A stretch of DNA of 64,000 nucleotides from Clostridia bacterium (lineage in GTDB: Bacteria > Bacillota > Clostridia > Oscillospirales > Acutalibacteraceae). Of this stretch, positions 14,291 through 34,561 are shown piece by piece (position 1 is the first letter of the stretch; the number at the start of each line of letters is the position of its first letter). The position numbers and the translations under genes were made by a program. The notes under the pieces are model-generated. The model was not told the origin of the DNA. It worked only from the letters and a program-made list of their open reading frames with translations, and did no database searches. The DNA lies in contig JAFRQM010000037.1 of NCBI GenBank assembly GCA_017428625.1, positions 62,001 through 126,000 of the forward strand, written 5' to 3'.

Positions 14291-14313
14291 GTAAAAGTAT
14301 TGTTTAGAACTGA

Positions 14314-15547: not shown

Positions 15548-15685
15548 AAACTTTTACCTCCGTATTGAAATATTGTTTTTCTTTGATTCGGCTTTTTACC
15601 GAATCTCTAAGGCGGAATTCTCCGCACAAGGCAGAATATGTTTTTCACCTCCTGTTGCTCAGATTTTATCGGCTGTATTTATCTC

Positions 15686-15775: not shown

Positions 15776-15802
15776 AGATACGCCTCCTTTCGCTGTAAAA
15801 TA

Positions 15803-15848
15803 CAAAAAAGCCGGACAATGTACGATTGATTTCATACGCTGTCCGGCT
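15803..15848 (-). terminator. Rho-independent terminator
   Basis: AGCCGGACA (15809-15817) pairs perfectly with TGTCCGGCT (15840-15848), followed by a run of Ts on the minus strand. It includes the stop codon of the 15832-16140 gene and separates it from the secreted-protein block. Confidence 0.8.
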
Positions 15849-16140
15849 GTAATTTGTTTTGATATTTAAGATTGTCTGTATGTTGCTTCCCGTTTTCGGA
15901 ACGGGCTGCTTTTTGTCCTTCGGTGATTGATTTTTGAAATCTGATTGAAATGTAGTCCATCTTAACTGCCGCACGCAGGAATTGCGGATATTCTTCATCG
16001 TAAAGAACAACTACTGCATCCGGTTCGTTATCTTTTAACTCCATAACTGATTTATTGATACTTTTATCCCAGCTTTCAACCTGGATTTCATCGTCTCCGA
16101 CAGGCATAAACAAATGCAGTTCTTTAGTTATTTTCGACAT
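15832..16140 (-). CDS. Small hypothetical ICE protein
   Basis: The 102-residue cytosolic protein (MSKITKELHLFMPVGDDEIQ...) has a mixed alpha/beta first half (PDAVVVLYDEEYPQFLRAAVKMDYISIRF) and a charged C-terminus. No family is recognised. The ATG at 16140 is preceded by AAGG; an in-frame TTG at 16164 would add eight basic residues but has no ribosome site. It follows parB on the same strand and ends inside a terminator hairpin, so it probably forms the end of the parB transcript. Confidence 0.6.
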   Translation of the reverse strand: MSKITKELHLFMPVGDDEIQVESWDKSINKSVMELKDNEPDAVVVLYDEEYPQFLRAAVKMDYISIRFQKSITEGQKAARSENGKQHTDNLKYQNKLQPDSV

Positions 16141-16201
16141 TATTTTTTTCCTTATCTTTTTCAAATATTTTTTGAGAGTGGCTTTTTTGACGATTTTTTA
16201 T

Positions 16202-16214
16202 CGGCACCGTGCCG
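16202..16214. promoter_or_regulatory. 13-bp palindrome next to parB
   Basis: CGGCAC-C-GTGCCG is a perfect inverted repeat around one central base, in the 157-bp gap between parB and the next gene. It is a candidate binding site, possibly for the ParB protein, but it does not resemble the Spo0J parS sequence. Confidence 0.35.
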
Positions 16215-16297
16215 TTGTTTTTTGCACTTTTTCCTCTCAGTTTTTCCCGGAGTGATGTCAGGCACTATGAGATATTTCTATTTGGAAAAAGCACATT

Positions 16298-17176
16298 TTA
16301 TCGGCTCTGTTGATTTCTCGCACGTTTTATCTGAGCCTGTCGGAAATTCTCAAGAAGCTTCATTATTCCGTTTTTCATCTGCAATGGGGTATATGCTTTC
16401 GGAAAAAACTCTTTTATATCGTTATACCTTAATAGTATATCCATTCCCTCGGGTTTCTTCTGCGCCTGCATCAAATCGAGCATAGTATCCTCATTGAGAC
16501 TTCCTTCCTTACTCATTTTCCTCATTTTCTGTGCCTGGGAGAGTGAGGGAGTTGTCTGCTCACTCTCAATAGTTTCCATCAGCAAATCCTGCTCGGCAGG
16601 GGAAAGATATGAGACTTCGACCGCGGGAGTAATACCCATCTTTCTTTCGTCAACCAATCTCTGAAGTTTGGGATTGAGTTCATTAAGGCGGATATATCGC
16701 TGAATGTTTCTGGCGCTCTCGTTAGCTCCCTCTGCAATCAGGTCACGAGTCTTGCCTGAAAAAGTGTGGCCATTTTGTCCACCGTTTTCCTGAGTCAATG
16801 GCGGTCTGCCCATTCTCCTGTTAATGGCTTCCATTTTCATTTTATATGCCTTACCTTTTTCACTCGGCAAAATACAGTCTCTTTGAAGATTGCTGTCCAC
16901 CATCATAATGATGGCTTCATCTCTGGTGCAGTCACGGATGATAGCGGGGATTTCGGTTATACCGGATAGCTCGCAGGCGTGTTTCCGCCTGTGCCCGGAA
17001 ATGATTTCATAACCACCCTCATCTCTCAGTCGCACGGTAATCGGGGTTAAGATTCCGTATTCTTTTGTACTCTCCGTAATCTCCCTCATTGCATCATCAT
17101 CTCTGACGGCGAAAGGGTGATCCGGGAAATCGTGAAGTTCGCTCACGGGTATCATTTCGATTGATTCTTTTGTCAT
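16298..17176 (-). CDS. parB: ParB/RepB/Spo0J family partition protein
   Basis: The 292-residue protein starts at the ATG at 17176 (GGAGGA upstream). Residues about 5-95 form the ParB N-terminal CTPase fold, with IPVSELHDFPDHPF, GILTPITVRLRDEGGYEIISGHRRKHACEL and IIRDCTRDEAIIMMVDSNLQR. The DNA-binding part follows (GKAYKMKMEAINRRMGRPP, then RNIQRYIRLNELNP). ParB-like proteins mark DNA for segregation; in ICEs they usually help maintain the excised circle or regulate transfer. No ParA is visible in the window. It is the last gene before the right attachment site. Confidence 0.9.
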   Translation of the reverse strand: MTKESIEMIPVSELHDFPDHPFAVRDDDAMREITESTKEYGILTPITVRLRDEGGYEIISGHRRKHACELSGITEIPAIIRDCTRDEAIIMMVDSNLQRDCILPSEKGKAYKMKMEAINRRMGRPPLTQENGGQNGHTFSGKTRDLIAEGANESARNIQRYIRLNELNPKLQRLVDERKMGITPAVEVSYLSPAEQDLLMETIESEQTTPSLSQAQKMRKMSKEGSLNEDTMLDLMQAQKKPEGMDILLRYNDIKEFFPKAYTPLQMKNGIMKLLENFRQAQIKRARNQQSR

Positions 17177-17210
17177 ATTTTTTCCTCCTTCTAGTTGATT
17201 TTTGACAACA

Positions 17211-17253
17211 AAAAAAGCCGGACTTCTCAATCATAACGATTAAAAAGTCCGGC
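17211..17253 (-). terminator. Terminator-like hairpin in the parB leader
   Basis: GCCGGACTT (17217-17225) pairs perfectly with AAGTCCGGC (17245-17253), followed by a T-run on the minus strand. It lies 35 bp before the parB start, so it either blocks transcripts from beyond the att site or attenuates parB. Confidence 0.7.
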
Positions 17254-17293
17254 CTAATTAATTATGAAGTTTTGAGAACAAGGCTGTAGTTAA

Positions 17294-17326
17294 ATCCCTA
17301 CAATCATCCCTACAGCTATCCCCACA
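17294..17326. repeat. Three 12-bp iteron-like direct repeats at the ICE end
   Basis: ATCCCTACA, ATCCCTACA and ATCCCCACA occur at 17294, 17306 and 17318, exactly 12 bp apart. They lie between parB and the att site. Helically phased repeats here suggest binding of a recombinase, ParB or replication protein. The third copy loosely resembles a DnaA box. Confidence 0.6.
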
Positions 17327-17407
17327 GTAATTGAAAAATATAAAAAATACTGAAATTATTGTGCTAAATCCAGTAAAAAACAACGCCATATAGACAATAT
17401 TTAACTA

Positions 17408-17539
<132 letters not shown>

Positions 17540-17553
17540 CTCCGAGTGGGCAT

Positions 17554-17577
17554 TTGCTTCAGAGTTTTGCTTCAGAG
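17554..17577. repeat. Integrase arm-type repeats, left end
   Basis: TTGCTTCAGAG occurs at 17554-17564 and 17567-17577, 13 bp apart. The same motif recurs beside the integrase stop and at the right end of the element (37148-37185). Paired repeats at both ends next to att sites are typical arm sites for tyrosine recombinases. Confidence 0.55.
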
Positions 17578-17620
17578 CTGACGAAAAGGGCTCAAAAAGC
17601 CGCTGATTTTAATCCGTAAA

Positions 17621-17643
17621 ATGGATAAAAATGAAGATATTTA
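17621..17643. repeat. Direct repeat shared with the right end of the element
   Basis: ATGGATAAAAATGAAGATA and following bases match 37282-37303 with two differences. It is a second type of end repeat and a candidate integrase or excisionase binding site. The rest of 17540-17789 holds only the arm repeats and a short copy of AACCCGGAGGTC at about 17704. Confidence 0.5.
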
Positions 17644-17766
17644 TTGCAAATCCAATGCATAAAAGATAAATAATCGATGAATATTATGACCTTTTCCTAC
17701 AGAACCCGGAGGTCAATCTGTTGATTCCCTTGAAAAATAAGGATTCTTTTATGCATTTTTTGTGTT

Positions 17767-17788
17767 TTGCTTCAGAGTTTGCTTCACA
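17767..17788. repeat. Second pair of arm-type repeats beside the integrase gene
   Basis: TTGCTTCAGAG (17767-17777) and TTGCTTCACA (17779-17788) end one base before the integrase stop codon. They repeat the motif at 17554-17577. Confidence 0.5.
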
Positions 17789-17789
17789 A

Positions 17790-19001
17790 TCACCCTGTTT
17801 CACGCATTTTATCAAGTTCACAGATTATTCCTGTTTCACTGTCTGCGCCCTTAATCGCCTCGTCTGCAAAACTGCCAAGCAGATTCGCGGCCGCCTTATC
17901 TCTTGATTTGAACTGATGAGTATAAATCTTCAATGTCGTAGAAGCATCGGCATGACCGAGTCTCCCCGAGACCGTAGCTACATCTGCATCATAGGCAATA
18001 AGCAGCGATGCATTTGTGTGCCTGAGAGAATGAAGTGAATGGTGCTCCAGCCCGTACTTTGCCTGAAACTTATCCCACCAGTCACCAACAGTATCGGGAT
18101 GAATGGGCGTTCCGTCTGCTTTGGTGAAAAGCCTGTCGCAATCCTGCCAGAATTTACCCGCCTTAAGTCTTTGGACGCTTTGCCAACTCTTATACTCCCT
18201 GAGAAGTTCAGCTGTATGAGTGTCCAACGAAAGGTTGCGGATACTGCTTGTCGTTTTAGGTTCCTTAGTGATTATCTGATGATGAACATATTGAGAAGTG
18301 CGGCGGATATGGATGGTGCTTCTTTCAAAATCAATGTCTTTCCATTCAAGACCGCACAGCTCGCCGCGGCGACAACCGCATAACAATAAAACGGTTATCA
18401 TTGTTCTATACTGAATCGGCTCATCTTCAAGAAGTTGGAGCACATGCCTTGCTTCGTCCTCTGACATACATTCAATCTGCTTGCGATGAACTGTCGGAGG
18501 TTCAGCGCGATTGGCAATATTCTCGTTTATTATTCCCCAGCGCCAAGCAGCATTAAGAACTCTTGAAATGATGTTATGATATTCGCGCACGGTTTTCGGG
18601 GAAAGAGGTCCTCCGGTTTTTGCGTTGGTTCCCGGTTTCATCAGAGAAAAATAAAACTCATTTAGTTGTTGCTGATCAATGTCTCTGAGTTTTGTTGAGC
18701 CTATTGACGAAGCGAATATTCTTTTGAAAAGGCTTTCATATCTCTCGTAGGTCTTCGGTGCAAGTCTGTCTTTCGCAACATTCTCCATCCAGTACTCTGC
18801 AGTTTTTCTGAAAGTTGAGTATGATGTTATATACCTGTTTTTTTCAAGATCCTTCTGAAACTCAGCAAGTTGCTGCTCCAGAGCAAGAGCAAGCTGACCG
18901 GGTGTAATATCGTCAGGCGGACGATATGTTCTCGTGTGAAGCTTTTTGTTGAAGTAAATGCGAAGTTCATAGGAATTACCTCTTTTTTTATAAGTCGCCA
19001 T
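17790..19001 (-). CDS. int: Tyrosine-recombinase integrase of the mobilizable element
   Basis: The 403-residue protein has an N-terminal AP2-like arm-binding domain (MATYKKRGNSYELRIYFNKK), a core-binding SAM-like domain (about 60-165), and a catalytic domain. The catalytic Arg is in GCRRGELCGLEW (about 213), the His-x2-Arg in HSLRHTNASLL (about 324), and the nucleophilic Tyr in LKIYTHQF (about 358). It lies 300 bp from attA, the usual position of an integrase next to its own site. The target is inferred to be the tRNA-fMet 3' end. GAAGG lies upstream of the ATG. The active-site residues are all present. Confidence 0.94.
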   Translation of the reverse strand: MATYKKRGNSYELRIYFNKKLHTRTYRPPDDITPGQLALALEQQLAEFQKDLEKNRYITSYSTFRKTAEYWMENVAKDRLAPKTYERYESLFKRIFASSIGSTKLRDIDQQQLNEFYFSLMKPGTNAKTGGPLSPKTVREYHNIISRVLNAAWRWGIINENIANRAEPPTVHRKQIECMSEDEARHVLQLLEDEPIQYRTMITVLLLCGCRRGELCGLEWKDIDFERSTIHIRRTSQYVHHQIITKEPKTTSSIRNLSLDTHTAELLREYKSWQSVQRLKAGKFWQDCDRLFTKADGTPIHPDTVGDWWDKFQAKYGLEHHSLHSLRHTNASLLIAYDADVATVSGRLGHADASTTLKIYTHQFKSRDKAAANLLGSFADEAIKGADSETGIICELDKMRETG

Positions 19002-19070
19002 TAATGATATACCTTCTTTCCGGCGAATGTAATTCCGTATGTTTCCACGCCCGCATTATAACATAAGCAG

Positions 19071-19301
19071 TCATATAATACAACCTTCATTTGACTTGTT
19101 CACGGTATCGGGTTTGCCGAATGTCAGCAAATATTTTTCCAAGTCATCAAGGTCGAAAACCGTTCTGTTGCCGAAGCGCAGCGACGGTATTTTACCCGAA
19201 TTGACAATTTGCCTGATTGCATTTTTTGTAACCGCGGTATTGGGATCGTCACAAATTAGTTCTTCATAAGCTGTATTTACCGTTCTCATTCTGTTAGTCA
19301 T
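19071..19301 (-). CDS. xis: Excisionase / MerR-type DNA-binding protein
   Basis: The 76-residue protein has the excisionase helix-turn-helix layout: TAVTKNAIRQIVNSGKIPSLRFGNRTVFDLDDLEKYL. It lies immediately upstream of the integrase on the same strand, the standard xis-int order. It should bend the att DNA and direct recombination toward excision. Confidence 0.82.
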   Translation of the reverse strand: MTNRMRTVNTAYEELICDDPNTAVTKNAIRQIVNSGKIPSLRFGNRTVFDLDDLEKYLLTFGKPDTVNKSNEGCII

Positions 19302-19337
19302 ATATCACGTTCCTTTCTGCCTCATTGGCTGTAGAAT

Positions 19338-20930
19338 TCACTGTTCAATATTAGATTTATTCTTTTCTTTCTCTCTTTCCTCCTTCAGTCGCCGGTTGTG
19401 TTCATCGGCTTTTATTTGCGCCTGCTTTAATCTTGCATTCATTGAAAAATCTTTCTTTTCAATGAAAATTGTCCTTCCGTCAATTTCAACGGGAACCGCG
19501 TCATCCGAATTGCCGAGAGCAACATCGATACTGTGTTGAATGGTTTTCAGGAATTTCAGCTCCTTTTCGATTTTTACGAGAGATTCATCATAAGATTTCA
19601 TAATCGGCATCAACTTCTTCAGTTCCGACTTTGCTTTCTTTTCAGAATCCACATTGAGAAGCTTTGACTTGTTCTTTTTAATGAAGTAATATGATTTAAT
19701 CTCTTTTTCGTGTTCACGGTAAAATTTGTCTCTGCCTATTTTCTTATTTTCATACTGTTCACCGATCGGCTTTACCGTTTCCCATCTCTTAATTGTTTTC
19801 AAATCCGAATTGAGCAAATCAACCTGTTTTTTGATTCTGTCTTTTTCGGCTTTTGTTTTTTCATAATCTCTTTCTATTGATTGAATATGATTATCCAAAT
19901 CTGAGGGCGTGAGTATGCTGCGCGAAACAAGATATTCTGTCTGAACCGAAAGCCGCTTAAGGTTTTCCGCTTTCGCTTTATCACTGTATGCGCCGTAGTT
20001 TCTGCCGTCGGAATAATCCTGCAAAAGGTCAATCAGAGTTTTTTCTTTAGGAACTTTGACAACCAGTCCCTTTGCCCAACTCAATAATCCGCTGAGATAT
20101 TCGTGGATAAGCCGTAAAGACTGATTTATCTTTTTTACCAACCGATTGTATTCTCCGCGTTCTGTTACAATGCCTTTTGCTTCCATTGCTCTCACATTCG
20201 GACCTTCGTGAATTGTCGGCAATAATTCAATGCCGCGGCTTTCAAAGCTGTCTGCTGTTATTCTTTCTGTCATGTCTTTTTCCTCAAACATTCTGTTATT
20301 GATTTCAGCCCATGCATTTCTCCACTCAATAAGCGTTTTGCTGTCGGACCAATCCGTTGTCTTGACGGCTTTTTTCTTTTTCTTTCCGCTTTCATCAACG
20401 AATGTGATGAGCTTTTGTTTTTCTCCCCAGGTGCCGTCTTTGTTCATCGGTCTTATCGGGCAGAGCAGATGAATGTGGGGATTTGGTTTTGAATCGTTTT
20501 CTTCCGGATAATGAAACGACCAGTCACATATCATTCCTCTGCTTACGAAATTTTCAAGAATGAATTTCCGGACAATTTCGATGTTTTCTTCGTTTGTAAA
20601 TTCCGTCTGCAACGCAAAATCAAAATTGAAGGCAAGCTGAGCGTCTGCTCTTTTCTCCTGAAACTCAACCTCATCCCAAAGAGTTTTCCTGTCTTTATAC
20701 TTTTCCGGAACATATTCGGGGATAAGTATTTCACTGTGAATCAATCCTTTTTTATTTGAGAAATCATAAGTTTCGTGATAATAATCCGATTGTAGTTTTT
20801 CACAAGCCCTGTATGCCGCCATTTCGGTCACCGAGTGTCCCTCCGATCGCTTAACCTGTTCAACATGAAAATGATAATCTGCGTTTATCAATCCTCCTTC
20901 AAATAGATTTTCTGTTTTCAATCGCATCAT
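19338..20930 (-). CDS. mobA: MobA/MobL-type (MobQ) relaxase
   Basis: The 530-residue protein has the MobQ N-terminus: ADYHFHVEQVKRSEGHSVTE (nucleophile Tyr-containing region), then AAYRACEKL and the metal-binding NPHIHLLCPIRP (about 150). A long coiled-coil C-terminus (about 330-470) follows. It nicks oriT and leads the strand into the T4SS. The predicted oriT lies 400 bp upstream. The ATG pair at 20930/20927 has no ribosome site; an AAGGAGG lies only one base before an in-frame TTG at codon 15 (LINADYHFH), so the true start is uncertain. It overlaps the upstream gene. Confidence 0.9.
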   Translation of the reverse strand: MMRLKTENLFEGGLINADYHFHVEQVKRSEGHSVTEMAAYRACEKLQSDYYHETYDFSNKKGLIHSEILIPEYVPEKYKDRKTLWDEVEFQEKRADAQLAFNFDFALQTEFTNEENIEIVRKFILENFVSRGMICDWSFHYPEENDSKPNPHIHLLCPIRPMNKDGTWGEKQKLITFVDESGKKKKKAVKTTDWSDSKTLIEWRNAWAEINNRMFEEKDMTERITADSFESRGIELLPTIHEGPNVRAMEAKGIVTERGEYNRLVKKINQSLRLIHEYLSGLLSWAKGLVVKVPKEKTLIDLLQDYSDGRNYGAYSDKAKAENLKRLSVQTEYLVSRSILTPSDLDNHIQSIERDYEKTKAEKDRIKKQVDLLNSDLKTIKRWETVKPIGEQYENKKIGRDKFYREHEKEIKSYYFIKKNKSKLLNVDSEKKAKSELKKLMPIMKSYDESLVKIEKELKFLKTIQHSIDVALGNSDDAVPVEIDGRTIFIEKKDFSMNARLKQAQIKADEHNRRLKEEREKEKNKSNIEQ

Positions 20931-21261
20931 TGATAATTACGGGAATGGTATCATCATAATCCACGAGTATTTTTTCAAAGAGCGCTTCAAGCTCATGAGG
21001 ATAAAGTTCGGCAAGAGCAGGGTAAAACTTTATTATGGCTCCGCCGATATTGCAAAGCTGATGTGTCCTTATATCCCGTTCTTTTTTCTTTGCAGATTTT
21101 GCCCTGTTGTTATCCCTGACAGCTCTGTGAAAAGCGGCTGAAGCTTTCTCATCCTCTTTAAGCTTTTTCAATACTGCTGTGATTTCATCTTCCGAAACAT
21201 CCGAATATCCGTATTCACTGAAAAGATTATATAATTCATCTTTTGAAATGTCCTTTTTCAA
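20899..21261 (-). CDS. Relaxase-associated small protein (DUF3847-like)
   Basis: The 120-residue basic helical protein includes KKERDIRTHQLCNIGGAIIKFYP and LYPHELEALFEKIL. These resemble the DUF3847 proteins that accompany MobQ relaxases. It may act as a MobC-type relaxosome accessory at oriT; that is inferred from position. The start is a TTG at 21261 with AGGAGG seven bases upstream. The stop overlaps the relaxase frame by 32 bp. Confidence 0.65.
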   Translation of the reverse strand: MKKDISKDELYNLFSEYGYSDVSEDEITAVLKKLKEDEKASAAFHRAVRDNNRAKSAKKKERDIRTHQLCNIGGAIIKFYPALAELYPHELEALFEKILVDYDDTIPVIINDAIENRKSI

Positions 21262-23580: not shown

Positions 23581-24945
23581 ATGCTCCAACGAAAAATCAC
23601 AAAAAAAATTGAAGAGTTCTATAAAGGCAATCCGAAAAAGGCGCTGATGATTACCGGCGCCCGCCAGGTCGGAAAGTCTTATATAATCGAAAAGTTTGCA
23701 AAGGCAAACTATAAAAGTGTAATAAAAATGGATTTTATCGAGAATCCGGATTATATTACGCTGTTTGAAAACGCGCAAGGTGCAGATGAGATTTTACTGC
23801 GCCTTTCCGCTCTTTTCGGAGATCGTATGCTCCCCGGCAAGACGATTATCTTTTTTGACGAAGTTCAGGAATGCAGGGAATTGATTACCCAGATCAAATA
23901 CCTTGTTCAGGACGGCAAATATTCATTTATTCTCAGCGGCTCACTGCTCGGAACCGTATTTAAGGATATTATTTCCGCTCCGGTAGGATATATGGATATT
24001 ATCACGATGTTTCCTCTTGATTTTGAGGAATTCGCCCTAGCAAACGGCGTAGGCACAAATGTCATTGATGCGCTTCGTGATTCGTTTGAGCATAAAAAGC
24101 CTGTGGATAAGTTTATTCATGAGCGAATGACAGCGCTGTTTGAGCTCTACCTTATCGTCGGCGGTATGCCGGAGGCAGTCTCCGCTTATTTGGAAACAAA
24201 AAATCTCCGCAAAGTTGCCGATGCGCAAAATGCGATCATCCGGCTTTACAAGCGCGATATTTCAAAATACAACGAGAAGAACCGTTTGTATCTCAATGAG
24301 ATATTTGATTTGATTCCCAGCGAGCTGAACGCAAAAAACAAGCGGTTTATTCTGAAAAATCTCAATGAAAAAGCGCGGTTTGATAAATATTATGACAGCT
24401 TTCTGTGGCTGAAGAATGCGGGTGTGGCGCTTCCGGCAAATGTGGTAGATGAGCCGACTGTGCCGTTGCTTCTCTCTAAATCGCAAAACCTTTTTAAGCT
24501 GTTTTCAAATGATATCGGCCTGCTCGCCGCGCAATACGGAAACGAGATACAGCTCAAAATTTTGCAGCATGAAACGACGATCAACTTCGGCTCGGTTTAC
24601 GAAAATGTCGCCGCCGAAGAGCTGACCGCCCACGGATATACGCTCTATTACTACAACAGCAAAAAATTCGGTGAGCTTGATTTTGTGATTGAAGAGGACG
24701 GAAAGATATTGCCGATTGAAATTAAATCAGGCAAGGACTATTACCGCCATAATGCGATGGATAATGTGCTGAATCTGACGGATTACGGTATCAGCGAGGG
24801 CTATGTTTTCTGCAACGGCAATGTCGAAACAGACGGCAAAATCATCTACTTCCCTATCTATATGCTGATGTTCCTGCACAAGAAGGAACTTCCGGAAAAA
24901 ATCATGTTCAATTCCGACTTTTCGGATTTGAATAGTAAGACATAA
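23581..24945 (+). CDS. AAA ATPase with C-terminal DUF4143/nuclease-like domain
   Basis: The 454-residue protein has Walker A ALMITGARQVGKSYIIEKFA (about 22-40), Walker B TIIFFDEVQE (about 98) and sensor motif FILSGSLLG. The DUF4143 domain follows (about 200-420) with GELDFVIEEDGKILPIEIKSG, an acidic/ExK pattern like PD-(D/E)xK nucleases. These ATPases are very widespread in gut bacteria, often as selfish or defence-island cargo; their biochemical role is not settled. It has its own ribosome site (AGGAGG) and a plausible promoter in the 140-bp gap before it. Confidence 0.85.
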   Translation: MLQRKITKKIEEFYKGNPKKALMITGARQVGKSYIIEKFAKANYKSVIKMDFIENPDYITLFENAQGADEILLRLSALFGDRMLPGKTIIFFDEVQECRELITQIKYLVQDGKYSFILSGSLLGTVFKDIISAPVGYMDIITMFPLDFEEFALANGVGTNVIDALRDSFEHKKPVDKFIHERMTALFELYLIVGGMPEAVSAYLETKNLRKVADAQNAIIRLYKRDISKYNEKNRLYLNEIFDLIPSELNAKNKRFILKNLNEKARFDKYYDSFLWLKNAGVALPANVVDEPTVPLLLSKSQNLFKLFSNDIGLLAAQYGNEIQLKILQHETTINFGSVYENVAAEELTAHGYTLYYYNSKKFGELDFVIEEDGKILPIEIKSGKDYYRHNAMDNVLNLTDYGISEGYVFCNGNVETDGKIIYFPIYMLMFLHKKELPEKIMFNSDFSDLNSKT

Positions 24946-25096: not shown

Positions 25097-26200
25097 ATGC
25101 CGATTGATGTTTTTTCATTTTTTTCAGGGCTTGGTTTTTTGGACTTGGGATTCGAGAATGCAGGATTTAATATCGCATTTGTTAATGAATACAACGAGAC
25201 CTTTTTGAGAGCATATCAGTATGCGAGAAGACACAGGGATTTCACTCCGGAATTTGGATATAGTCATGATGATGTAAGAGCTTTTTTATCGGATGAAAAG
25301 TGGGAAGATACATTTCCCCAGTATAATCATCGTGGAGATAGATTAATTGGTTTTATTGGAGGCCCCCCGTGTCCTGATTTTTCTGCCGCAGGAACAAACG
25401 CTGGAGAGAAGGGACTAAATGGACAACTCACAACAGTTTATGTTCAACTGATTGAAAAGCGGCGCCCCGACTTTTTTGTGTTGGAGAATGTCAAAGGGCT
25501 TTATCAAACGAAAAAGCATCATGAATACTACGAAAGAATAAAACGAAGACTATATAGATCGGGTTATTCTCTGTTTGACTCAATAGAAAATGCGTTGCTA
25601 TATGGAGTTCCCCAATTTAGGGATAGACTAATACTGATTGGATTCAAGCGTGAACGTTTTGGACGCAATCTTCAATATGTTTTCGGTGGCCGACGGCTTT
25701 ATACAATGGATATCATCAAGCGAACTCAATGGCCCACTGTCACGCCTTTTCAACAAAATGGGCGTCTGGAACAACCAAGAGGTATAATACAGGAACTAAC
25801 AGTACAACATTGGTTTGAAATTAACAGGGTTGAAGAACATCCTAATGCTTGCGATTGTTTTGCGGTAAAAAAGGAAGATAAATTCTTAACCATTCCCGAG
25901 GGGGAATCAAGAGGCAAGTCTTTTAAACGACTCCACAGATGGCGTTATTCACCTACTGCTGCTTATGGCAATAACGAAGTCCACTTACATCCATATCTTC
26001 CACGAAGGATCAGTGTTGCTGAAGCTCTTGCAATACAATCTTTACCTCAAGATTTTTCATTACCGTCAGATATCACGCTATCATCAAAATTCAAAATGGT
26101 GGGCAACGGAGTGCCTTATCTTTTGGCACTGGGAATAGCACGTGATCTTTACGAATGGATAGAAAACAATTTGCGTAGAATAGAGGGAGAAAATGGTTAA
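25097..26200 (+). CDS. DNA cytosine-5 methyltransferase (first of two)
   Basis: The 367-residue protein has the m5C methyltransferase motifs in order: I (FSFFSGLGFLDLGF, SAM binding), IV (GGPPCPDFSAAG with the catalytic Cys, about 90), VI (FFVLENVKGL), VIII (PQFRDRLILIGF), a target-recognition region (about 200-290) and X (VGNGVPYLLALGIARDL). The ATG at 25097 follows GAGGTG. Its last codons overlap the next gene by 8 bp, so it forms a tight operon with the NTase-fold and DUF262 genes. It probably marks self DNA for that system. The recognition sequence cannot be read from sequence. Confidence 0.92.
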   Translation: MPIDVFSFFSGLGFLDLGFENAGFNIAFVNEYNETFLRAYQYARRHRDFTPEFGYSHDDVRAFLSDEKWEDTFPQYNHRGDRLIGFIGGPPCPDFSAAGTNAGEKGLNGQLTTVYVQLIEKRRPDFFVLENVKGLYQTKKHHEYYERIKRRLYRSGYSLFDSIENALLYGVPQFRDRLILIGFKRERFGRNLQYVFGGRRLYTMDIIKRTQWPTVTPFQQNGRLEQPRGIIQELTVQHWFEINRVEEHPNACDCFAVKKEDKFLTIPEGESRGKSFKRLHRWRYSPTAAYGNNEVHLHPYLPRRISVAEALAIQSLPQDFSLPSDITLSSKFKMVGNGVPYLLALGIARDLYEWIENNLRRIEGENG

Positions 26201-26807
26201 TCTTGAATCTATCAAGAATGATCTAATGACAATGGATGCAAAAGACTATTATCTTAAGCACATTGTAAAATCACATAACTGGTATTTTTCAGAATACTTA
26301 CATATTCCTGCAGAAGATCTCGTTGATAAAATGGATTTTTTTAAGGAAATAGTGTCAACCAAGCTTAATATTAGTTTTCATAGTTTGCAAATCGTAGGAA
26401 GCGCTAAAACAGGATATAGTTTGTCACCCAGTAAACTGTTACGTCCTTTCCATGATGAAGCTCCTGGTAAGCCATCATCCGACATTGATATTGCAATAGT
26501 TTCTGAGCGACTCTATCAATTGTTTTGGGATAAGCTTCGGAACGTTAAAGGGATTTGGTACCAAAGATATTATAATCATCTAACTGAGTCGATATTTCGT
26601 GGATACATCAATGAAAAAGATCTTATGCAAATATCTGGCTTAAGTGAAGAATGGGAAAGACTGGTAAATCCAATCAATGTAGCACTGCAAGATAATCTTG
26701 GTTTTGTACATCCCATCACCTATCGAATCTACAGAAATTGGGATGATTTGGAGGAATACCAAATAATTGGTATAAGAAAAGCAAAAAAAATAATGGAGGA
26801 AGATTAA
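26193..26807 (+). CDS. Nucleotidyltransferase-fold protein in the Dcm-DUF262 operon
   Basis: The 204-residue protein carries an NTase-like core: VGSAKTGYSLSPSKLL (about 66-80), then KPSSDIDIAIVSERLYQLFW (about 92-112), fitting the G-S...D-x-D pattern of the Pol-beta fold. The rest is helical with many aromatics. It may transfer nucleotides to a protein or nucleic acid, or act as a signalling enzyme; I recognise no named family. It is sandwiched with an 8-bp overlap upstream and no gap downstream, so its function is probably tied to both partners. Confidence 0.7.
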   Translation: MVNLESIKNDLMTMDAKDYYLKHIVKSHNWYFSEYLHIPAEDLVDKMDFFKEIVSTKLNISFHSLQIVGSAKTGYSLSPSKLLRPFHDEAPGKPSSDIDIAIVSERLYQLFWDKLRNVKGIWYQRYYNHLTESIFRGYINEKDLMQISGLSEEWERLVNPINVALQDNLGFVHPITYRIYRNWDDLEEYQIIGIRKAKKIMEED

Positions 26808-27971
26808 ATGTTTAATTTTACTGATAACAGGAAGACCATCAAAGAAATATCTTCGATGTTTGCCGATGGAAGTTTAATAGTAGATCAAACTTATCAGCGC
26901 AGATCTGTATGGAGCGAAAAAGATAAAATTAGGTTGATAGAAACTGTTCTTTTAAATCTGATAATTCCTGTACTTTTTTTCTGGAAGGCGGAAACCGATC
27001 CTGATACCGGGTTATCAATTACGCATATCGTAGATGGGCAACAAAGGATAAAGGCAATTTGCTCCTTTATAGATAACGAATTTAAACTTAAGCCACAGTT
27101 TTTGCTTGATGCTACAGCAAAAGAAAAATATGCGAATAAGTATTTTAAGGACCTTTCTTCAGAGGACAAAAAAGCATTCTGGAATTACCAGTTGATGGTG
27201 ATTGATATTGATCCTTCGGCAACTCGCCCAGACATTATTACCATGTTTAATCGGTTAAATCTCACAGATTATAATTTGAATGATCAGGAAAAACGAAACA
27301 GTATGTCAGGAGAGTTTGCTGCACTCGCTAGAGAGCTTTCCGAGTATACCATTTGGGATGAGAAAAGACTTTTTACAGCACCTGATATAAGAAGGATGAA
27401 GGATGTTGAATTCTGTGCATCGTTGGTTCTGCTATACAGGCGAGGTATTATTGATCAAACCGATCAATCTGCATTAAATCAGGCATATGAAGAGTTGCAA
27501 ACAGGCTATAGTGATGCAGAAAGTGATAAAGAAGCTGTCTGCAAAGCAATTGATGCTGTCCCGCAATTCTTTGTTTCTGAAGAGGTCTCAAAATTCCTAA
27601 AGAAGAAAACTCAGTTATATACACTTTTTTCTGTCATATTTTATATGCAAAGAAATGGGTTAGATGTAGATGAGAACTTGTTGAACAGGTTTCAGTCATT
27701 CGTTAAACTTTATTCTGTTTTCAGTAATGATATGGATCTTGCTGATCAGATTGGCGAAGATGAGAAAACTCTCTTTGACTGGTTGAAAAAGTACAAGCTT
27801 GCTTCTTCGGAGGGCCTGAATAAACACACGAACCGTATGATACGGTTTAACGTTCTTAAAGACTTTATGTTTGGCTTAACTCCCGCTTTGCAAACAGCAG
27901 AGGACGAGTTGTATTCCAAAATGCTTGCTGCGTCAATTGACCCAACCGATGATCCAGATGAAGAAATATAA
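26808..27971 (+). CDS. DUF262 (GmrS/ParB-fold) domain protein
   Basis: The 387-residue protein opens with the DUF262 signature: DQTYQRRSVWSEKDKIRLIET, PVLFFW, then VDGQQRIKAI (about 74-83, the DGQQR NTP-site motif), followed by TMFNRLNLTDYNLNDQEKRN. DUF262 is the nucleotide-hydrolysing half of GmrSD-type restriction enzymes. The usual DUF1524 HNH nuclease half is not present: the C-terminal 200 residues show no HNH motif. The nuclease function, if any, must lie elsewhere. It is the last gene of the operon and is followed by a strong terminator. Confidence 0.86.
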   Translation: MFNFTDNRKTIKEISSMFADGSLIVDQTYQRRSVWSEKDKIRLIETVLLNLIIPVLFFWKAETDPDTGLSITHIVDGQQRIKAICSFIDNEFKLKPQFLLDATAKEKYANKYFKDLSSEDKKAFWNYQLMVIDIDPSATRPDIITMFNRLNLTDYNLNDQEKRNSMSGEFAALARELSEYTIWDEKRLFTAPDIRRMKDVEFCASLVLLYRRGIIDQTDQSALNQAYEELQTGYSDAESDKEAVCKAIDAVPQFFVSEEVSKFLKKKTQLYTLFSVIFYMQRNGLDVDENLLNRFQSFVKLYSVFSNDMDLADQIGEDEKTLFDWLKKYKLASSEGLNKHTNRMIRFNVLKDFMFGLTPALQTAEDELYSKMLAASIDPTDDPDEEI

Positions 27972-28002: not shown

Positions 28003-28038
28003 CTCTGGGAAAAAACAGGTACTCTAATTTTCCCAGAG
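28003..28038 (+). terminator. Terminator after the DUF262 gene
   Basis: CTCTGGGAAAA (28003-28013) pairs perfectly with TTTTCCCAGAG (28028-28038). It closes the Dcm-NTase-DUF262 operon. Confidence 0.75.
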
Positions 28039-28040: not shown

Positions 28041-28069
28041 TTGAAACACTGTTAGTAAGGTGCTATAAT
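28041..28069 (+). promoter_or_regulatory. Promoter of the RHH-methyltransferase operon
   Basis: TTGAAA (28041-28046), a 17-bp spacer, then TATAAT (28064-28069). It lies 43 bp before the methyltransferase start, so the encoded RHH domain could bind here to control expression. Confidence 0.75.
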
Positions 28070-28111: not shown

Positions 28112-29236
28112 ATGGCAAAGCAGGTACACATTCGAGTTGATGATGAAGTCTATGAAGAATTGAGCAACTATTCTTCCGTAAGCGGTCAGTCTATACAAGA
28201 CTGTCTCTCGGTGGCGATTAGACAACTTCTGATTAATGCGAAAGAAGAACCGGCTTCTGATGATGACCAGATGACTTTCATTGACTTGTTTGCCGGTATA
28301 GGAGGTATGCGTATTGCATACGAGAAGGCTGGTTGCCGTTGCGTCTATTCCAATGAGTGGAATAAATACAGTCAGCAGACTTATTATGCCAATTTTGGTG
28401 TTCAGCCAGATGGCGACATAACTAAAGTAGACGCAGAAAGCATCCCGGATCATGATATCCTTGTGGCAGGGTTCCCCTGTCAGCCTTTTTCCATTGCAGG
28501 TGTTTCTAAAAAACAAAGTCTTGGCCGTGCAACAGGTTTTGCAGACAAGACGCAAGGAACTTTGTTCTTTGATATCTGTAGAATATTGAAGGCAAAAAGG
28601 CCTAAGGCCTTTATGCTTGAAAACGTTAAGAACCTTTGCAGTCACGATAAAGGAAGAACATTTAAGATTATTCAGGAATCTTTGGAGGAATTAAATTACA
28701 AGATTTTCTATTCGATTCTTGACGGAAAAATGTATGTACCTCAACATAGAGAGCGAATAGTAATTGTTGGATTCGACAAAGAACGCTACGGTGATTCATT
28801 TAACTTCAAGTTTGATTTGAAGCCCAAGAAAAAAGTACCAACTGTTAGCGGGATACTTGAACCCAAGGTGGACACCAAGTACACCCTGTCAGATAAACTC
28901 TGGGATTATCTGCAAGCCTATGCTGAAAAGCATAAAGAAGCAGGTAATGGCTTTGGTTATGGTATTGCGCCTCTTGATGGAATCACAAGAACCATCAGCG
29001 CCCGGTATTATAAGGACGGATCAGAAATCTTAATAGAGCAGGAAGGCAAGAATCCGCGGCGCCTTACGCCCCGGGAGTGTGCCAGACTGCAAGGCTTCCC
29101 GGATTCCTTTAAGATTCCTGTATCTGACACACAGGCATATAAACAGTTTGGGAACTCTGTTGTAGTTCCATTAATGACAGAAGTTGCTAAATTGGTCGTA
29201 AGAAAGCTTCAGCAACTAGACAGTACATCTGATTAA
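28112..29236 (+). CDS. RHH domain fused to DNA cytosine-5 methyltransferase (EcoRII/Dcm type)
   Basis: The 374-residue protein begins with a ribbon-helix-helix-like domain (about 1-45, KQVHIRVDDEVYEELSNYSS...). The methyltransferase follows: motif I FIDLFAGIGGMRIAYEKAGC (about 54), IV AGFPCQPFSIAG (Cys about 121), VI FMLENVKNL, VIII QHRERIVIVGF, TRD, and IX/X (RECARLQGFPDSF, YKQFGNSV). The partners (EcoRII-like nuclease, Vsr) suggest it methylates CCWGG-like sites. An N-terminal DNA-binding domain lets some methyltransferases repress their own gene, so restriction-modification timing can be set without a C protein. Confidence 0.9.
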   Translation: MAKQVHIRVDDEVYEELSNYSSVSGQSIQDCLSVAIRQLLINAKEEPASDDDQMTFIDLFAGIGGMRIAYEKAGCRCVYSNEWNKYSQQTYYANFGVQPDGDITKVDAESIPDHDILVAGFPCQPFSIAGVSKKQSLGRATGFADKTQGTLFFDICRILKAKRPKAFMLENVKNLCSHDKGRTFKIIQESLEELNYKIFYSILDGKMYVPQHRERIVIVGFDKERYGDSFNFKFDLKPKKKVPTVSGILEPKVDTKYTLSDKLWDYLQAYAEKHKEAGNGFGYGIAPLDGITRTISARYYKDGSEILIEQEGKNPRRLTPRECARLQGFPDSFKIPVSDTQAYKQFGNSVVVPLMTEVAKLVVRKLQQLDSTSD

Positions 29237-29275
29237 TTGGTTATATCAAAATACAACAGAGAGGTTGTGTAAGTA

Positions 29276-30451
29276 ATGGAGAACTATGCATCTCTTGCAA
29301 TTCAAGCGTCAATGCGAGGACAAAGGGCATATTGCAAATTTCTGTCAGCAAATGACACTGGCCTGACAGGTGCACACCAAGCTGGAATTTACATATCGAA
29401 ACCGGCAATACCGATTCTCTTTGATGTACCAGGGCAAAAGGGAGAAAACAAAGAGAAATGGGTAAAAATCAAGTGGCAGGAAGATTTTGAAACTGACAGT
29501 CGGTTCATTTACTATGGGCAAGGCACGAGAAATGAATATCGAATAACCAATTTTGGACGCGGGTTTCCATTCTTGAAACATGAGTATACTGGCGCTTTAT
29601 TGGTGTTTGTAAAATGGACGGATACAGACTACAGCGGATATGTACTGAACTCTGAAGATGATATAAACCAATTTCTGGAAGCGTTTGGTATCAGCCCAAC
29701 TGAAACAAATCAGCTGATTGAAGTTGAACAGGTAAACCCCGAAGCACAAGAGCAAATCGCAATGCAGGAGTTTATCAGGGGCTTAACGGTTGATTTTCCT
29801 GATTCGGTTGAAATGTCTGCTGCAGCGAGAGAGATTCAAAACCGGGTATACAATCACGCAGAGTTCATTCGCACTGATCCTGACAGAAAGGTAATTGATT
29901 GGACGAGAATGGAATATGCGCTATTCCGGGCCATTGAGCATGCTCGCTATGGAACAGTAATTCAGCAGGGGTTCAGTTCTGTTGACGACTTTATAACTAT
30001 GGCGAATATGGTACTAAATCGCCGGAAAAGCCGGGCGGGAAAAAGCCTTGAACATCACCTGTCAGCTATTTTTGACGGTAACGGAATTAGATACAAGGCT
30101 CAAGCTGTTACTGAAGGAAACAAAAAGCCTGACTTTATTTTCCCTTCCCAGGAAGCATACCATGATATATCGTTCCCCACGGAAAAGCTCATATCACTTG
30201 CCGCAAAAACCACATGCAAGGACCGGTGGAGACAAGTTATAAACGAAGCGGACAGGCTAAGGAACAGGCCGAAGTATCTTTGCACCCTCCAGCAAGGAAT
30301 CTCGCCGGCTCAAATGGATGAGATGCAGGAGGAGCAAGTAATTCTGGTCGTTCCCAAACCCTATATTGCAACATACCCCCGTGACAGGCAGGAGAGGATT
30401 TGGACGTTGAACAAATTTGTCAGCTTTATAAAAGAAACAGAGGGAGTTTGA
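29276..30451 (+). CDS. EcoRII-like type II restriction endonuclease
   Basis: The 391-residue protein has an N-terminal effector-binding domain (about 1-170, RGQRAYCKFLSANDTG...HQAGIYISK) and the EcoRII-C catalytic domain (about 245-385): SRAGKSLEHHLSAIF, then EGNKKPDFIFPS, AAKTTCKDRWRQVINEADR and LCTLQQGIS. This PD-(D/E)xK-type core includes the conserved Tyr, Lys and Glu region of EcoRII. EcoRII cuts before CCWGG and needs a second site as effector; both domains being present suggests the same mode. It is preceded by its methyltransferase and overlaps vsr by one base. Confidence 0.88.
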   Translation: MENYASLAIQASMRGQRAYCKFLSANDTGLTGAHQAGIYISKPAIPILFDVPGQKGENKEKWVKIKWQEDFETDSRFIYYGQGTRNEYRITNFGRGFPFLKHEYTGALLVFVKWTDTDYSGYVLNSEDDINQFLEAFGISPTETNQLIEVEQVNPEAQEQIAMQEFIRGLTVDFPDSVEMSAAAREIQNRVYNHAEFIRTDPDRKVIDWTRMEYALFRAIEHARYGTVIQQGFSSVDDFITMANMVLNRRKSRAGKSLEHHLSAIFDGNGIRYKAQAVTEGNKKPDFIFPSQEAYHDISFPTEKLISLAAKTTCKDRWRQVINEADRLRNRPKYLCTLQQGISPAQMDEMQEEQVILVVPKPYIATYPRDRQERIWTLNKFVSFIKETEGV

Positions 30452-30906
30452 TGGCTGATAAGCTAACTGTCGAGAGAAGAAGTTGGAATATGTCCAAAAT
30501 ACGCAGTAAGGATACAACGATTGAGACCAAGGTGCGCCAATGGCTATTCCATCACGGATATCGCTACAGGAAAAACGTTAAAGGGATGCCAGGAAAACCG
30601 GATATTTTTCTTGGCTCATATAATACGGTGGTGTTTGTACACGGGTGTTTTTGGCATCGCCACCTCGGTTGTATAGAAGCTGCTGTTCCAAAGACAAGGA
30701 CTGCTTTTTGGCTTGAAAAATTCGAGAAGAACATTTCCAATGACAAAAAGAACATCCAAACGCTTGAATCCATGGGGTATCAAGTCATTGTTCTCTGGGA
30801 GTGTGAAATTGAAAAACACTTCGAGGAGACGATGGATAAGGTGGTATCCGTAATTGGCCCGCCTCACAAGGGAAAGAAAAACAGAGATGATGGGAGTAAA
30901 GAGTAA
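30451..30906 (+). CDS. vsr: Very short patch repair endonuclease (Vsr)
   Basis: The 151-residue protein has the Vsr signature: RRSWNMSKIRSKDTTIE, then GMPGKPDIFLGSYNTVVFVHGCFWHRH (metal and zinc-binding residues), KNISNDKKN and the C-terminal VLWECEIEK. Vsr nicks T:G mismatches that arise when 5-methylcytosine deaminates in CCWGG, so it matches a Dcm/EcoRII-type methyltransferase. The start ATG overlaps the nuclease stop (TGATG) with GAGGGAG upstream; this is the third gene of the operon. Confidence 0.93.
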   Translation: MADKLTVERRSWNMSKIRSKDTTIETKVRQWLFHHGYRYRKNVKGMPGKPDIFLGSYNTVVFVHGCFWHRHLGCIEAAVPKTRTAFWLEKFEKNISNDKKNIQTLESMGYQVIVLWECEIEKHFEETMDKVVSVIGPPHKGKKNRDDGSKE

Positions 30907-30977: not shown

Positions 30978-31091
30978 TCTACGGCTCCCTCGCTCGAGCC
31001 CACGAGTCGATCAACAAGCTGGCCCTTGTGCCGGAGAGTTTTTAACAATAGTTTTCTGCTCTTGAAAGTGTTAATGTAGTTGGAGGAACAC

Positions 31092-31976
31092 ATGGAGTTT
31101 TTAAGCAAAGAAATTGAAAACCTTCTACAAGAATGTATAGACCGTTCTGATGACTTCCCGGCAGTCCTTGCCGAAAAATTTGAGGGTTTATCAGCGAAAG
31201 CTGACAATCAGCTCAGAAGTTGCATTAAAGTGCTCATCGACGAGGGATACATATCAAAGCTCAGTTGGGGAAGCAACGTACCTTATTATGGGCGCATCGA
31301 GCAAAAAGGATATGATTATTTTCGCCAAAAGGAAATATATATCAGGGCGAAATTGCGTCATGATCCATATTTCACTTTGCTGGATGATGAGTCTGAAAAA
31401 GCATTGCGTGAACTGTCTCAGTCCTCCGAAATGCATATAATGGTTTCCGGGAACGCCGACCAAGGCCGCGTCTTAGAGTATTTGAATAGAAATGGCTATA
31501 TTCAATTCAGGCCGAAGGGTTTGTCCTATGACTTTAGTGGCAATTTTACTGCAGTAGCTTCCATTACGCAGAAAGGAAAGAATTACTTTGCTGATAAAGC
31601 CGACCGGATTGAGGAAATTATGGTATTAGGTGATGAGGCATTTGTGGTAAACAATATTGACAAACAGTTTAATGTCAGCGGAAACACGATTTCAAATTCG
31701 CCAATTCAAGTCGGCGATGGCAACACGCAAAACATTGACTACTCTGACATTGAGAATAAACTAGGTGAATTAAAGGAAGAAATTACTTCTCTTAAGCTCT
31801 CGGATGAACAGATCAGCTTTCTCTCATCATTAATTGAGCGTGCGGAGAATGAGTGCAAGAGCAAAAATTCCAGCAAACTGAAAACCATTCTGAGTGAGTT
31901 GTGGGACTTTACGAAGCAGACGGGATCAAATTTGCTTGCAGCTTTTGTGGCGTACAAATTTGGCTTTGGGGCATAA
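31092..31976 (+). CDS. Winged-helix protein with C-terminal adaptor-like region (defence candidate)
   Basis: The 294-residue protein starts at the ATG at 31092 (GGAGG five bases upstream). Two winged-helix-like modules occupy about 1-85 and 90-185 (each with an EQKGYDYF or ITQKGKNYFADK beta-wing ending). Next comes a short Asn/Gly-rich segment (QFNVSGNTISNSPIQVGDGN, about 195-215), a coiled-coil helix pair and a hydrophobic C-terminus (LLAAFVAYKFGFG). The Asn/Gly segment resembles the linker of AbiTii-type and effector-associated proteins. It is 80 bp upstream of the helicase-nuclease gene, so the two probably form one system. No exact family is known to me. Confidence 0.6.
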   Translation: MEFLSKEIENLLQECIDRSDDFPAVLAEKFEGLSAKADNQLRSCIKVLIDEGYISKLSWGSNVPYYGRIEQKGYDYFRQKEIYIRAKLRHDPYFTLLDDESEKALRELSQSSEMHIMVSGNADQGRVLEYLNRNGYIQFRPKGLSYDFSGNFTAVASITQKGKNYFADKADRIEEIMVLGDEAFVVNNIDKQFNVSGNTISNSPIQVGDGNTQNIDYSDIENKLGELKEEITSLKLSDEQISFLSSLIERAENECKSKNSSKLKTILSELWDFTKQTGSNLLAAFVAYKFGFGA

Positions 31977-32056
31977 GTTTTTCTTGCAAAAACAAATTGA
32001 AGTTAGTCAAAGAAGCAGCAAATAGCAAACCGAGGAGCTATTAGGAGGATAAAATT

Positions 32057-34561
32057 ATGGCATCTTTACTGTCTAAACTGAGCAGCAAAACGAAGAGTGT
32101 TGCTATTGAGCCAAGAGAGATATTTATGGCATTGCCCAAAAAAGATAAAAGATATGAGTATCCGAGGGATGTGCAATCTGAAGTCTGGAAAAAATGGTTT
32201 GATGTTCGTGATGAGAAAAACTGCATCATAAAGATGAATACAGGAAGCGGGAAAACGGTTGTCGGATTGATGATATTACAAAGCTGTCTAAACGAAGGAA
32301 AAGGCCCCGCCGTTTATGTCGTTCCAGATAAGTATCTTGTTGGACAAGTATGCAATGAGGCTAAGAATCTTGGAATTCTTGTAACAGATGATAAAGACAG
32401 TTATTATTACACAGAGAATAAAGCGATATTAGTTACAACAGTTTATTCGTTAATTAATGGCCGAAGTGCTTTTGGAATGAGGCAAACAAACAACTATCCG
32501 ATAGGAAGCGTATTATTGGATGATGTTCATGCATGCCTTGATACAATTACAACACAGTTTTCTATAAGGATACCTGCCTCACACGCTCTGTATCAGCAGA
32601 TTGTCAAGCTCTTTGCATCGGAATGGAAAAGCTATAACAACAGCACGTATATAAACATCATTGATAACTGTGACCCGACAAAAACAGCAATTATTCCTTT
32701 TTGGGTATGGCAGGACAAGAAGAATTCAGTATATGAATTATTGTCAAAATATAACAATGCTGATGATGGCAATGAGTGTGTATATTTTAATTTGCCTCTT
32801 ATTGAGGACACTTTTTCAACGTGTGATTGCTTTATTTCCTCTCGTGAAATTGAGATCATACCGGAAGGAGTATCAATTTCAAAAATAACAAGCTTTGTAA
32901 ACGCCCAGCGAAGAATATTTATGAGTGCAACCCTTGCAGATGATAGCGTATTTATTTCTGCTGTTGGTCTACATAGAGATGATATTAAAAGAATTATTGT
33001 GCCTGATAACGCAAATGATATTGGTGACAGGTTATTCCTTTTTCCAAGACATTTGAATAGTGAGATAAAAAATGAAGAAATTAGGGACAAATTGTTCTTA
33101 ATTTCACAGAAGCATAATGTTGTTGTAATTGTACCCTCTTTTGAAAGAGCAAAATTCTGGGATCCACACGTGGAAAGGACCGTAACAAAAGACACAATTG
33201 ATGCTGCGGTTGCTAAATTAAAGGCCACTCATCTCGGATTAGTGGTTATGGTTAATAGATATGATGGTGTTGATCTACCCGATAATGCTTGCCGAGTCTT
33301 AGTTATAGATGGATTACCTCCGCTAAGAAATGAGAAGGACAAGTATATTCAGAGTATAAATCCTTCAAGCAGAATTCTTGTGAAAGAGCAAATTCAGAGA
33401 ATAGAGCAAGGAATGGGAAGAGGGGTTCGATCAAACAGTGATTCATGTTGTATTGTTCTGATGGGCGATAATCTTGCCGATGTTCTTCTTCGAAACAATG
33501 GAGTATCGCTTTTTAGCACAGCAACGAAAGAACAATATTCACTCTCGAAGGATCTCTGGGATTTATTAATTCAAGAAACCCCTAAACCTAGTGTGGATGA
33601 TGTTCTTGCACTTGCTGATTACTCACTTAATCGAGAAATCGAATGGATTCAGACTAGTAAAGAATGCTTATCAGAAGCGGTTTATTCATCTGAACCACAG
33701 TTCGATAGTAATACAATAGCATTACGCAATGCCTACGATTATGCAGCTTTATTACAGTGGCAAAAGGCGATAGATGTCATTGACTCTGAAATCAACAATG
33801 AAACCGATAGTAACACAAAAGGATATTTGCTACAACTTAAAGCAAAATATATGAACTTTATAGACAGGCTAACCGCTCAACAGATCTTGTTGGCGGGCAG
33901 GCGGTTCAATATAAGTATTCTTGCCCCGATTAATGGTATCAGATATGATAAATCCATCAATAATGTCGGACAAGCAAAGGCAATTTGCGATTATATTGAT
34001 GAAGAAAAGATTTCACAGAATAACTATGTTATTCATGTAAATTCGATTACTTCTTCACTAACATTTTCGCCAGATGCAAGTGGCTTTGAGAGTGCTCTTC
34101 AGAAGATCGGTAAGTTGATAGGTTTTGCTTCTACTCTACCAGACAAAGAAACAAACGGTGAAGGACCGGATAATCTCTGGGCAATAGGAGATAATAACTA
34201 TCTAGTAATAGAATGCAAAAGCGGAGCCACTTCATCAACTATATCCAAGGAATACTGCAACCAGTTGGGTGGCTCAATGAGGTGGTTTGCAAGTGAATAC
34301 GGCGACGCCTATAATGCTAAACCAATTATTGTGCATCAATCGCTTGTTATTGATAGACAGGCAACAGCACTAAATGATATGCGTATTATAAATCAGGAAA
34401 TGATAGAAAAGCTGAAGAAGAGTATAGATGATTTTGCAATAGCCATAGCGCAGGATGTAAACTGGCATGATGAAAGAAACATTAACGAATTATTGCATCA
34501 GTATGGCTTGCGAGGAGGCGACATTGTAAATAATTATACCTACCCGTATCAAGAAGCATAA
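32057..34561 (+). CDS. Superfamily 2 helicase with C-terminal nuclease-like domain
   Basis: The 834-residue protein has helicase motifs Q (YEYPRDVQSEVW), Walker A IIKMNTGSGKTVVG (about 60), DDVH in place of DEAH (about 154), the SAT-like MSATLAD motif III, and motif VI QRIEQGMGRGVRSNSD. The C-terminal domain (about 650-834) contains DNLWAIGDNNYLVIECKSG (about 704-723), a D...E-x-K pattern of PD-(D/E)xK nucleases. Helicase-nuclease fusions of this kind are frequent in phage-defence loci. AGGAGG precedes the ATG. The partner is the winged-helix gene upstream. Confidence 0.82.
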   Translation: MASLLSKLSSKTKSVAIEPREIFMALPKKDKRYEYPRDVQSEVWKKWFDVRDEKNCIIKMNTGSGKTVVGLMILQSCLNEGKGPAVYVVPDKYLVGQVCNEAKNLGILVTDDKDSYYYTENKAILVTTVYSLINGRSAFGMRQTNNYPIGSVLLDDVHACLDTITTQFSIRIPASHALYQQIVKLFASEWKSYNNSTYINIIDNCDPTKTAIIPFWVWQDKKNSVYELLSKYNNADDGNECVYFNLPLIEDTFSTCDCFISSREIEIIPEGVSISKITSFVNAQRRIFMSATLADDSVFISAVGLHRDDIKRIIVPDNANDIGDRLFLFPRHLNSEIKNEEIRDKLFLISQKHNVVVIVPSFERAKFWDPHVERTVTKDTIDAAVAKLKATHLGLVVMVNRYDGVDLPDNACRVLVIDGLPPLRNEKDKYIQSINPSSRILVKEQIQRIEQGMGRGVRSNSDSCCIVLMGDNLADVLLRNNGVSLFSTATKEQYSLSKDLWDLLIQETPKPSVDDVLALADYSLNREIEWIQTSKECLSEAVYSSEPQFDSNTIALRNAYDYAALLQWQKAIDVIDSEINNETDSNTKGYLLQLKAKYMNFIDRLTAQQILLAGRRFNISILAPINGIRYDKSINNVGQAKAICDYIDEEKISQNNYVIHVNSITSSLTFSPDASGFESALQKIGKLIGFASTLPDKETNGEGPDNLWAIGDNNYLVIECKSGATSSTISKEYCNQLGGSMRWFASEYGDAYNAKPIIVHQSLVIDRQATALNDMRIINQEMIEKLKKSIDDFAIAIAQDVNWHDERNINELLHQYGLRGGDIVNNYTYPYQEA

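Follow-up and report, generated by a model that had tools for sequence, protein, structure and literature searches.

Gene content of the locus

We analyzed a 64,000-nucleotide stretch of a Clostridia bacterium contig (JAFRQM010000037.1), referred to here as the window, in which three consecutive genes encode a C5-cytosine DNA methyltransferase (the methylase), a nucleotidyltransferase-like protein (the NTase), and a DUF262 protein (Table 1). The coordinates agree with the original prediction that the first two genes overlap by 8 bp and that the second and third abut with no gap, and all three reading frames are intact, with no internal stops. The terminator that had been placed at the end of the operon stood as a stable hairpin (−22 kcal/mol, z −4.3) but not as a canonical intrinsic terminator, because it lacks a T-run and is unlisted in the terminator scan; it is a possible transcription boundary. 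A strong promoter-like site lies 3′ of the hairpin (28041–28069), where it is placed to serve the first gene of a complete EcoRII-type restriction-modification (R-M) system (M, R, and Vsr; 28112–30906). This system adjoins the trio downstream, and the original prediction was silent on it.

Table 1. Features of the trio and of its downstream neighbor in the window
Feature	Position	Strand	Evidence
C5-cytosine DNA methyltransferase, M.Cfr10I/M.BsrFI (RCCGGY) family	25097..26200	+	Pfam, motifs, homologues
Pol-beta-fold nucleotidyltransferase-like protein, 204 residues	26193..26807	+	Motif, relatives' Pfam matches
DUF262 (GmrSD_N, ParB/Srx-like) NTPase-type protein, 387 residues	26808..27971	+	Pfam, PADLOC
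Hairpin, 12-bp stem, 3′ of operon, without T-run	28003..28038	+	Folding energy, terminator scan
EcoRII-type C5-methyltransferase, neighbor outside trio	28112..29236	+	
EcoRII restriction endonuclease (EcoRII-N and EcoRII-C domains), neighbor	29276..30451	+	Domain search
Vsr mismatch endonuclease, neighbor	30448..30906	+	Domain search

Ahead of the trio lies an AAA_14/DUF4143 gene (PDC-S01; 23581–24945), and 3′ of the EcoRII system (31080–34561) an unknown 298-aa gene is accompanied by a helicase matching the PADLOC candidate PDC-S28 (E 2e-292). The left part of the window holds minus-strand genes resembling conjugative-transfer and relaxase genes (about 2240–21261) and an integrase-like gene (17790–19001). 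Judged from these ORFs, the defense cluster, including the trio, is probably cargo of an integrative conjugative element.

The methylase matches Pfam DNA_methylase (E 1.8e-45) and retains its motifs, namely the catalytic PC at C92 (about 25370–25372), ENV, QxRxR, and GNGVP, so that by motif content it would qualify as the sequence-specific methylase of a Type II R-M system. Its closest annotated plasmid homologues, from Moraxella (48% identity) and Nostoc (46%; 48–49% for the two when only aligned positions are counted), are of the Cfr10I/Bse634I family and each adjoins a Cfr10I-type endonuclease; the homologue on the BsrFI plasmid pBsrF30 of Geobacillus is 37% identical. The gene that had been called Dcm does encode a C5-methylase, as proposed, but one of the Cfr10I/BsrFI type and not a true Dcm. 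These homologues, together with the strong conservation of the presumed target-recognizing region, make RCCGGY the likely site, a family-based assignment.

The middle protein of the window, searched singly against Pfam, gave no match. Across 16 divergent relatives, only G69, S70, D97, and D99 are invariant, and these residues form the Pol-beta nucleotidyltransferase signature (GS at 26397–26402 and DxD at 26481–26489); six of the 16 match NTP_transf_2 (best 4e-4) and three match Polbeta. The G[GS]...DxD motif combined with family-level similarity places the protein in the Pol-beta superfamily by sequence, in line with the predicted Pol-beta-like partner. Although the motif is shared with MntA of the MNT/HEPN systems and with CBASS cyclases, comparison of the NTase with both yielded no significant match (cyclase E 0.0085; MntA E 0.026, one member), and the trio has neither a HEPN toxin partner nor a CBASS effector. 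That MntA hit was also the best match to any known toxin-antitoxin family, and none was significant; membership in such a family, which would have undone the original prediction, was checked and not found. PDB profile searches with the NTase and with the DUF262 protein returned no significant match, and nothing matched in a PDB fold search with the AlphaFold model of the NTase; AlphaFold, given six close sequences, produced models of too low a quality to use (pLDDT 73 and 52).

The DUF262 protein matches Pfam GmrSD_N (E 5.7e-19) and carries DGQQR at 27033–27047. It shares this ParB/Srx-like domain with GmrSD, BrxU, and SspE; unlike them, the trio has no DUF1524 HNH domain and instead has its own methylase and an NTase. 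Pfam and PADLOC domain searches of the trio detected neither DUF1524/HNH, whose absence had been predicted, nor any other nuclease family. We rejected membership in the GmrSD Type IV group, since the DUF262 protein comes without DUF1524 HNH. Nor did the description of this protein as one half of GmrSD hold, because its nearest PADLOC profile is Menshen NsnA (E 5e-37), followed by PD-T4-2 A (E 5e-17), and not GmrS as such. The trio resembles Menshen (NsnABC) in having a DUF262 protein of the same profile, and phage-borne Menshen operons start with the methylase family of the trio. It differs in that the Menshen partners are NsnB (an AAA/DUF3696 ATPase) and NsnC, neither of which was found in the operon with Pfam and PADLOC, and in that methylase-bearing NsnA has an extra N-terminal domain; in the DUF262 tree, the trio clade is separate from Menshen NsnA. 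PD-T4-2 resembles the trio through the weaker profile match and through the PD-T4-2-like loci L032/L033, whose methylase is sister to that of the trio; it differs in pairing its DUF262 protein with an HEPN RNase-type partner B where the trio has its NTase-like protein. Compared with the Cfr10I/Bse634I/BsrFI Type II R-M systems, which have a related methylase, the trio carries the NTase and the DUF262 protein in place of the endonuclease. No cognate restriction endonuclease was found within it, and hhalign detected no similarity of the NTase or the DUF262 protein to PADLOC PDLC03534 endonucleases. As the original prediction supposed, none of the reference libraries that we used names a methylase-NTase-DUF262 system, and we found no description of this composition in the DUF262 literature, judged mostly by titles and abstracts.

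Conservation and neighborhoods of the trio

A search of 84,980 genomes with the NTase recovered five loci (L002–L006), each with methylase, NTase, and DUF262 genes in that order and with 66–82% identity. Two further trios are L070 (62–66% identity) and the divergent L035 (42–48%). With the window, this makes eight copies, all contiguous and in the same gene order (8/8), a small number of related loci that are not independent. The gene overlap recurs in the window, L004, L070, and L035. Within the trio clade, the neighborhood survey thus found the genes together, not usually apart as a chance association would have had it. Only one in 150 genomes of the host's family contains the trio. Its absence from the host's relatives suggests horizontal spread; the phylum labels of L003 and L004, both assembled from metagenomes, are uncertain.

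Because long branches made the NTase tree unreliable, we used the DUF262 and methylase trees alone. The DUF262 tree groups all eight trios in a single clade (99/98), within which L035 is the sister of the remaining seven. In the tree of methylases, the enzymes of those seven have as their sister group that of L032/L033 (100/100), two loci with a different kind of DUF262 module, and the L035 methylase is placed elsewhere. The L035 methylase therefore comes from another branch of the same family, meaning that the slot was retained while the gene was swapped, which argues against the methylase being a passenger. Just upstream of the L035 trio is a gene for a 68-aa C (controller) protein (C.AhdI, E 2.6e-13; C.BclI, E 5e-11) that is absent from the window and from the gut-clade copies. 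C proteins are the usual regulators in some R-M systems, typically those in which the restriction gene would be harmful to DNA not yet marked, and they delay that gene until the DNA has been methylated.

The NTase-DUF262 pair also occurs with no methylase nearby at seven distant loci (L007, a Pseudoalteromonas plasmid, and L010, L011, L024, L025, L026, and L071), and L027 holds a related NTase without DUF262. In the two whole genomes and one plasmid record of pair-only loci that were searched, there were no methylase relatives. We conclude that the NTase-DUF262 pair is the core and that only one clade has the methylase, methylation not being intrinsic to the pair. The claim that the three genes make up one system consequently stands for a conserved unit but not for an obligatory three-gene composition. 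Among the stand-alone pairs, that of L011 has a DRT8-type reverse transcriptase 340 bp upstream (L011:6015–7607), and that of L026 adjoins an integrase. Neither the NTase nor the DUF262 alignment retrieved any relatives when viral contigs were scanned, and phage records compared with the NTase gave no match.

MNT-type NTases are known antitoxins. The seven methylase-free loci, including those beside the integrase and the DRT8 gene, would suit a toxin-antitoxin or abortive-infection pair in which the NTase is toxin or antitoxin, DUF262 its partner, and the methylase a passenger. We regard this as very unlikely, given that the methylase is present in all eight members of the trio clade and that L035 carries a version from elsewhere in the family, besides the recurrent gene overlap and the lack of significant toxin-antitoxin matches described above.

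In all six gut-clade relatives whose upstream sequence was readable (L002–L006 and L070), an R-M gene on the same strand ends 24–42 bp upstream of the trio. These upstream systems are of at least three types: an EcoRII system in L003, EcoO109I in L005, L006, and L070, a C5/N6-methylase with a PDLC03488 endonuclease in L004, and another type with Vsr in L002. The EcoRII system lies downstream of the trio in the window and upstream in L003, as if the order had been permuted. With such neighbors, the trio might act as a guard or back-up, by analogy with the PrrC anticodon nuclease, which guards EcoprrI; the NTase-DUF262 pair would then fire once the neighboring Type II R-M system is blocked. We find this quite unlikely, since the most divergent trio, L035, has no adjoining R-M system, the stand-alone pairs likewise have none, and in the window the hairpin and a new promoter-like site separate the trio from the EcoRII genes.

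One methylase family beside several DUF262 modules

The methylase alignment picked out 38 loci when run against viral contigs. A Cfr10I-like endonuclease stands beside the methylase family in L045 and L052, and a 360-aa endonuclease family (PDLC03534) does so in about ten loci, three of them profile-tested. In three kinds of module, namely the trio L035, Menshen, and L032/L033, the methylase family also stands directly 5′ of a DUF262 gene. Menshen with the methylase was found in seven viral-contig loci, with matches to the NsnA, NsnB, and NsnC profiles in those tested; in L032/L033, the methylase is followed by a DUF262 gene and then by a RiboL-PSP HEPN gene, the L032 HEPN protein matching the PD-T4-2 B profile at only E 4e-4.

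Of 28 viral-contig loci of the methylase family, 10 have a DUF262 gene no more than 3 kb away, compared with 0/80 for EcoRII-type and 1/57 for EcoO109I-type methylases (1/137 combined). Fisher's test gave p 4e-8 for this linkage and p 0.008 when the DUF262 cases were counted as three module types, the latter being the fairer value because the DUF262 loci are related. As judged from these gene neighborhoods, the trio is part of a wider pattern in which DUF262 defense modules are paired with one methylase family. Separately, plasmid DUF262 genes were seen with other neighbors, a protein-kinase gene directly after them in L014 and L015 and an unknown gene plus an N6-methylase in L016, which suggests further partner types.

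A scan anchored on the long form of NsnA found it complete at seven loci, each of which has the methylase upstream. Two Vibrio phages added two more, for a total of nine out of nine. Four other matches covered only about the first 138 residues; three of these fall at other loci of the methylase family, where GHKL or McrB-like genes are present, and the fourth (L216) starts too close to the contig end for the methylase to be judged. Short NsnA, which lacks the extra domain, was accompanied by the methylase in none of six plasmid Menshen systems. By hhalign, the extra domain of long NsnA is a homologue of the N-terminal region of the PDLC03534 endonuclease (probability 96, E 2e-9). Its presence in both NsnA and a Type II endonuclease, together with the methylase linkage, suggests that the methylase-bearing Menshen module reads the same site as its methylase.

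The phage-borne Menshen operons that start with an RCCGGY-type methylase are L040, L042, L046, L047, L049, L053, L060, L219, and L220; this methylase-linked variant may already have been described elsewhere. GHKL-ATPase/helicase and McrB-like/LlaJI loci of this methylase family also carry the reader-type domain (L055–L057, L038, and, close to a contig end, L216). We considered this NsnA reader domain as a candidate part of the trio proteins and rejected it, as both a profile scan and hhalign showed it to be absent, and we identified no other DNA-recognition part in the trio.

Proposed self-marking and possible modes of action

Base methylation is the classical self-mark of bacteria, and the retention of a methylase of one fixed family beside DUF262 fits the self-marking role that had been proposed for it. 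By sequence, the catalytic motifs of all three proteins are intact. On balance, we lean toward the trio being an R-M-like defense operon in which the NTase and the DUF262 protein take the place of the endonuclease. The methylase would mark host DNA at a site with a CCGG core, probably RCCGGY by family, and the mark would protect that DNA. The DUF262 protein may be a DNA-sensing NTPase that the host mark keeps off and unmarked invading DNA switches on, and the NTase could be the output enzyme or a modifier of the output.

Several observations argue for this R-M-like reading. Elsewhere, the methylase adjoins Cfr10I-type and other Type II endonucleases, L035 has the C gene, and the three genes are contiguous in every copy. 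The Menshen parallel, in which an endonuclease-like NsnA domain goes with the methylase wherever it is present and never where it is missing, points the same way, as do the retention of the methylase slot through exchange within the family and the excess of DUF262 linkage over the EcoRII- and EcoO109I-type methylases. Against it stand the seven methylase-free pairs, the absent reader domain, the lack of a recognized nuclease domain, the poor AlphaFold models, of which that of the NTase matched nothing in the PDB, and the small counts, drawn from loci that are related and not independent.

A broader and more tentative proposal is that DUF262 defense cores alternate between two modes, being either methylase-free or coupled to an RCCGGY-type methylase, the coupled form making up a class of R-M system with effectors other than DNA endonucleases (NTase, HEPN, and Menshen). 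Applied to the trio, this would mean that foreign DNA lacking the methyl mark triggers an NTase whose target is RNA, nucleotides, or protein, and that DNA is not cut.

The mark might instead activate. 5-Methylcytosine laid down by the trio's own methylase would then recruit and stimulate the DUF262 protein, licensing the NTase against invaders. There is precedent in SspE, a DUF262 protein that requires the host phosphorothioate mark and whose NTPase is stimulated by it (PMC9646914; PMC13251355), and in BrxU, which accepts 5mC (PMC10952713). The domain that Menshen shares with Type II endonucleases and the C protein of L035 point to a protect-self logic instead, neither being direct evidence for the trio, and we consider activation by the mark unlikely.

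If the R-M-like reading is true, base methylation would control effectors other than endonucleases. One methylase family would then connect DUF262 systems that are poorly understood, namely Menshen, PD-T4-2-like modules, and the NTase pairs, and the phage-carried copies of Menshen would gain a rule for telling self from nonself.
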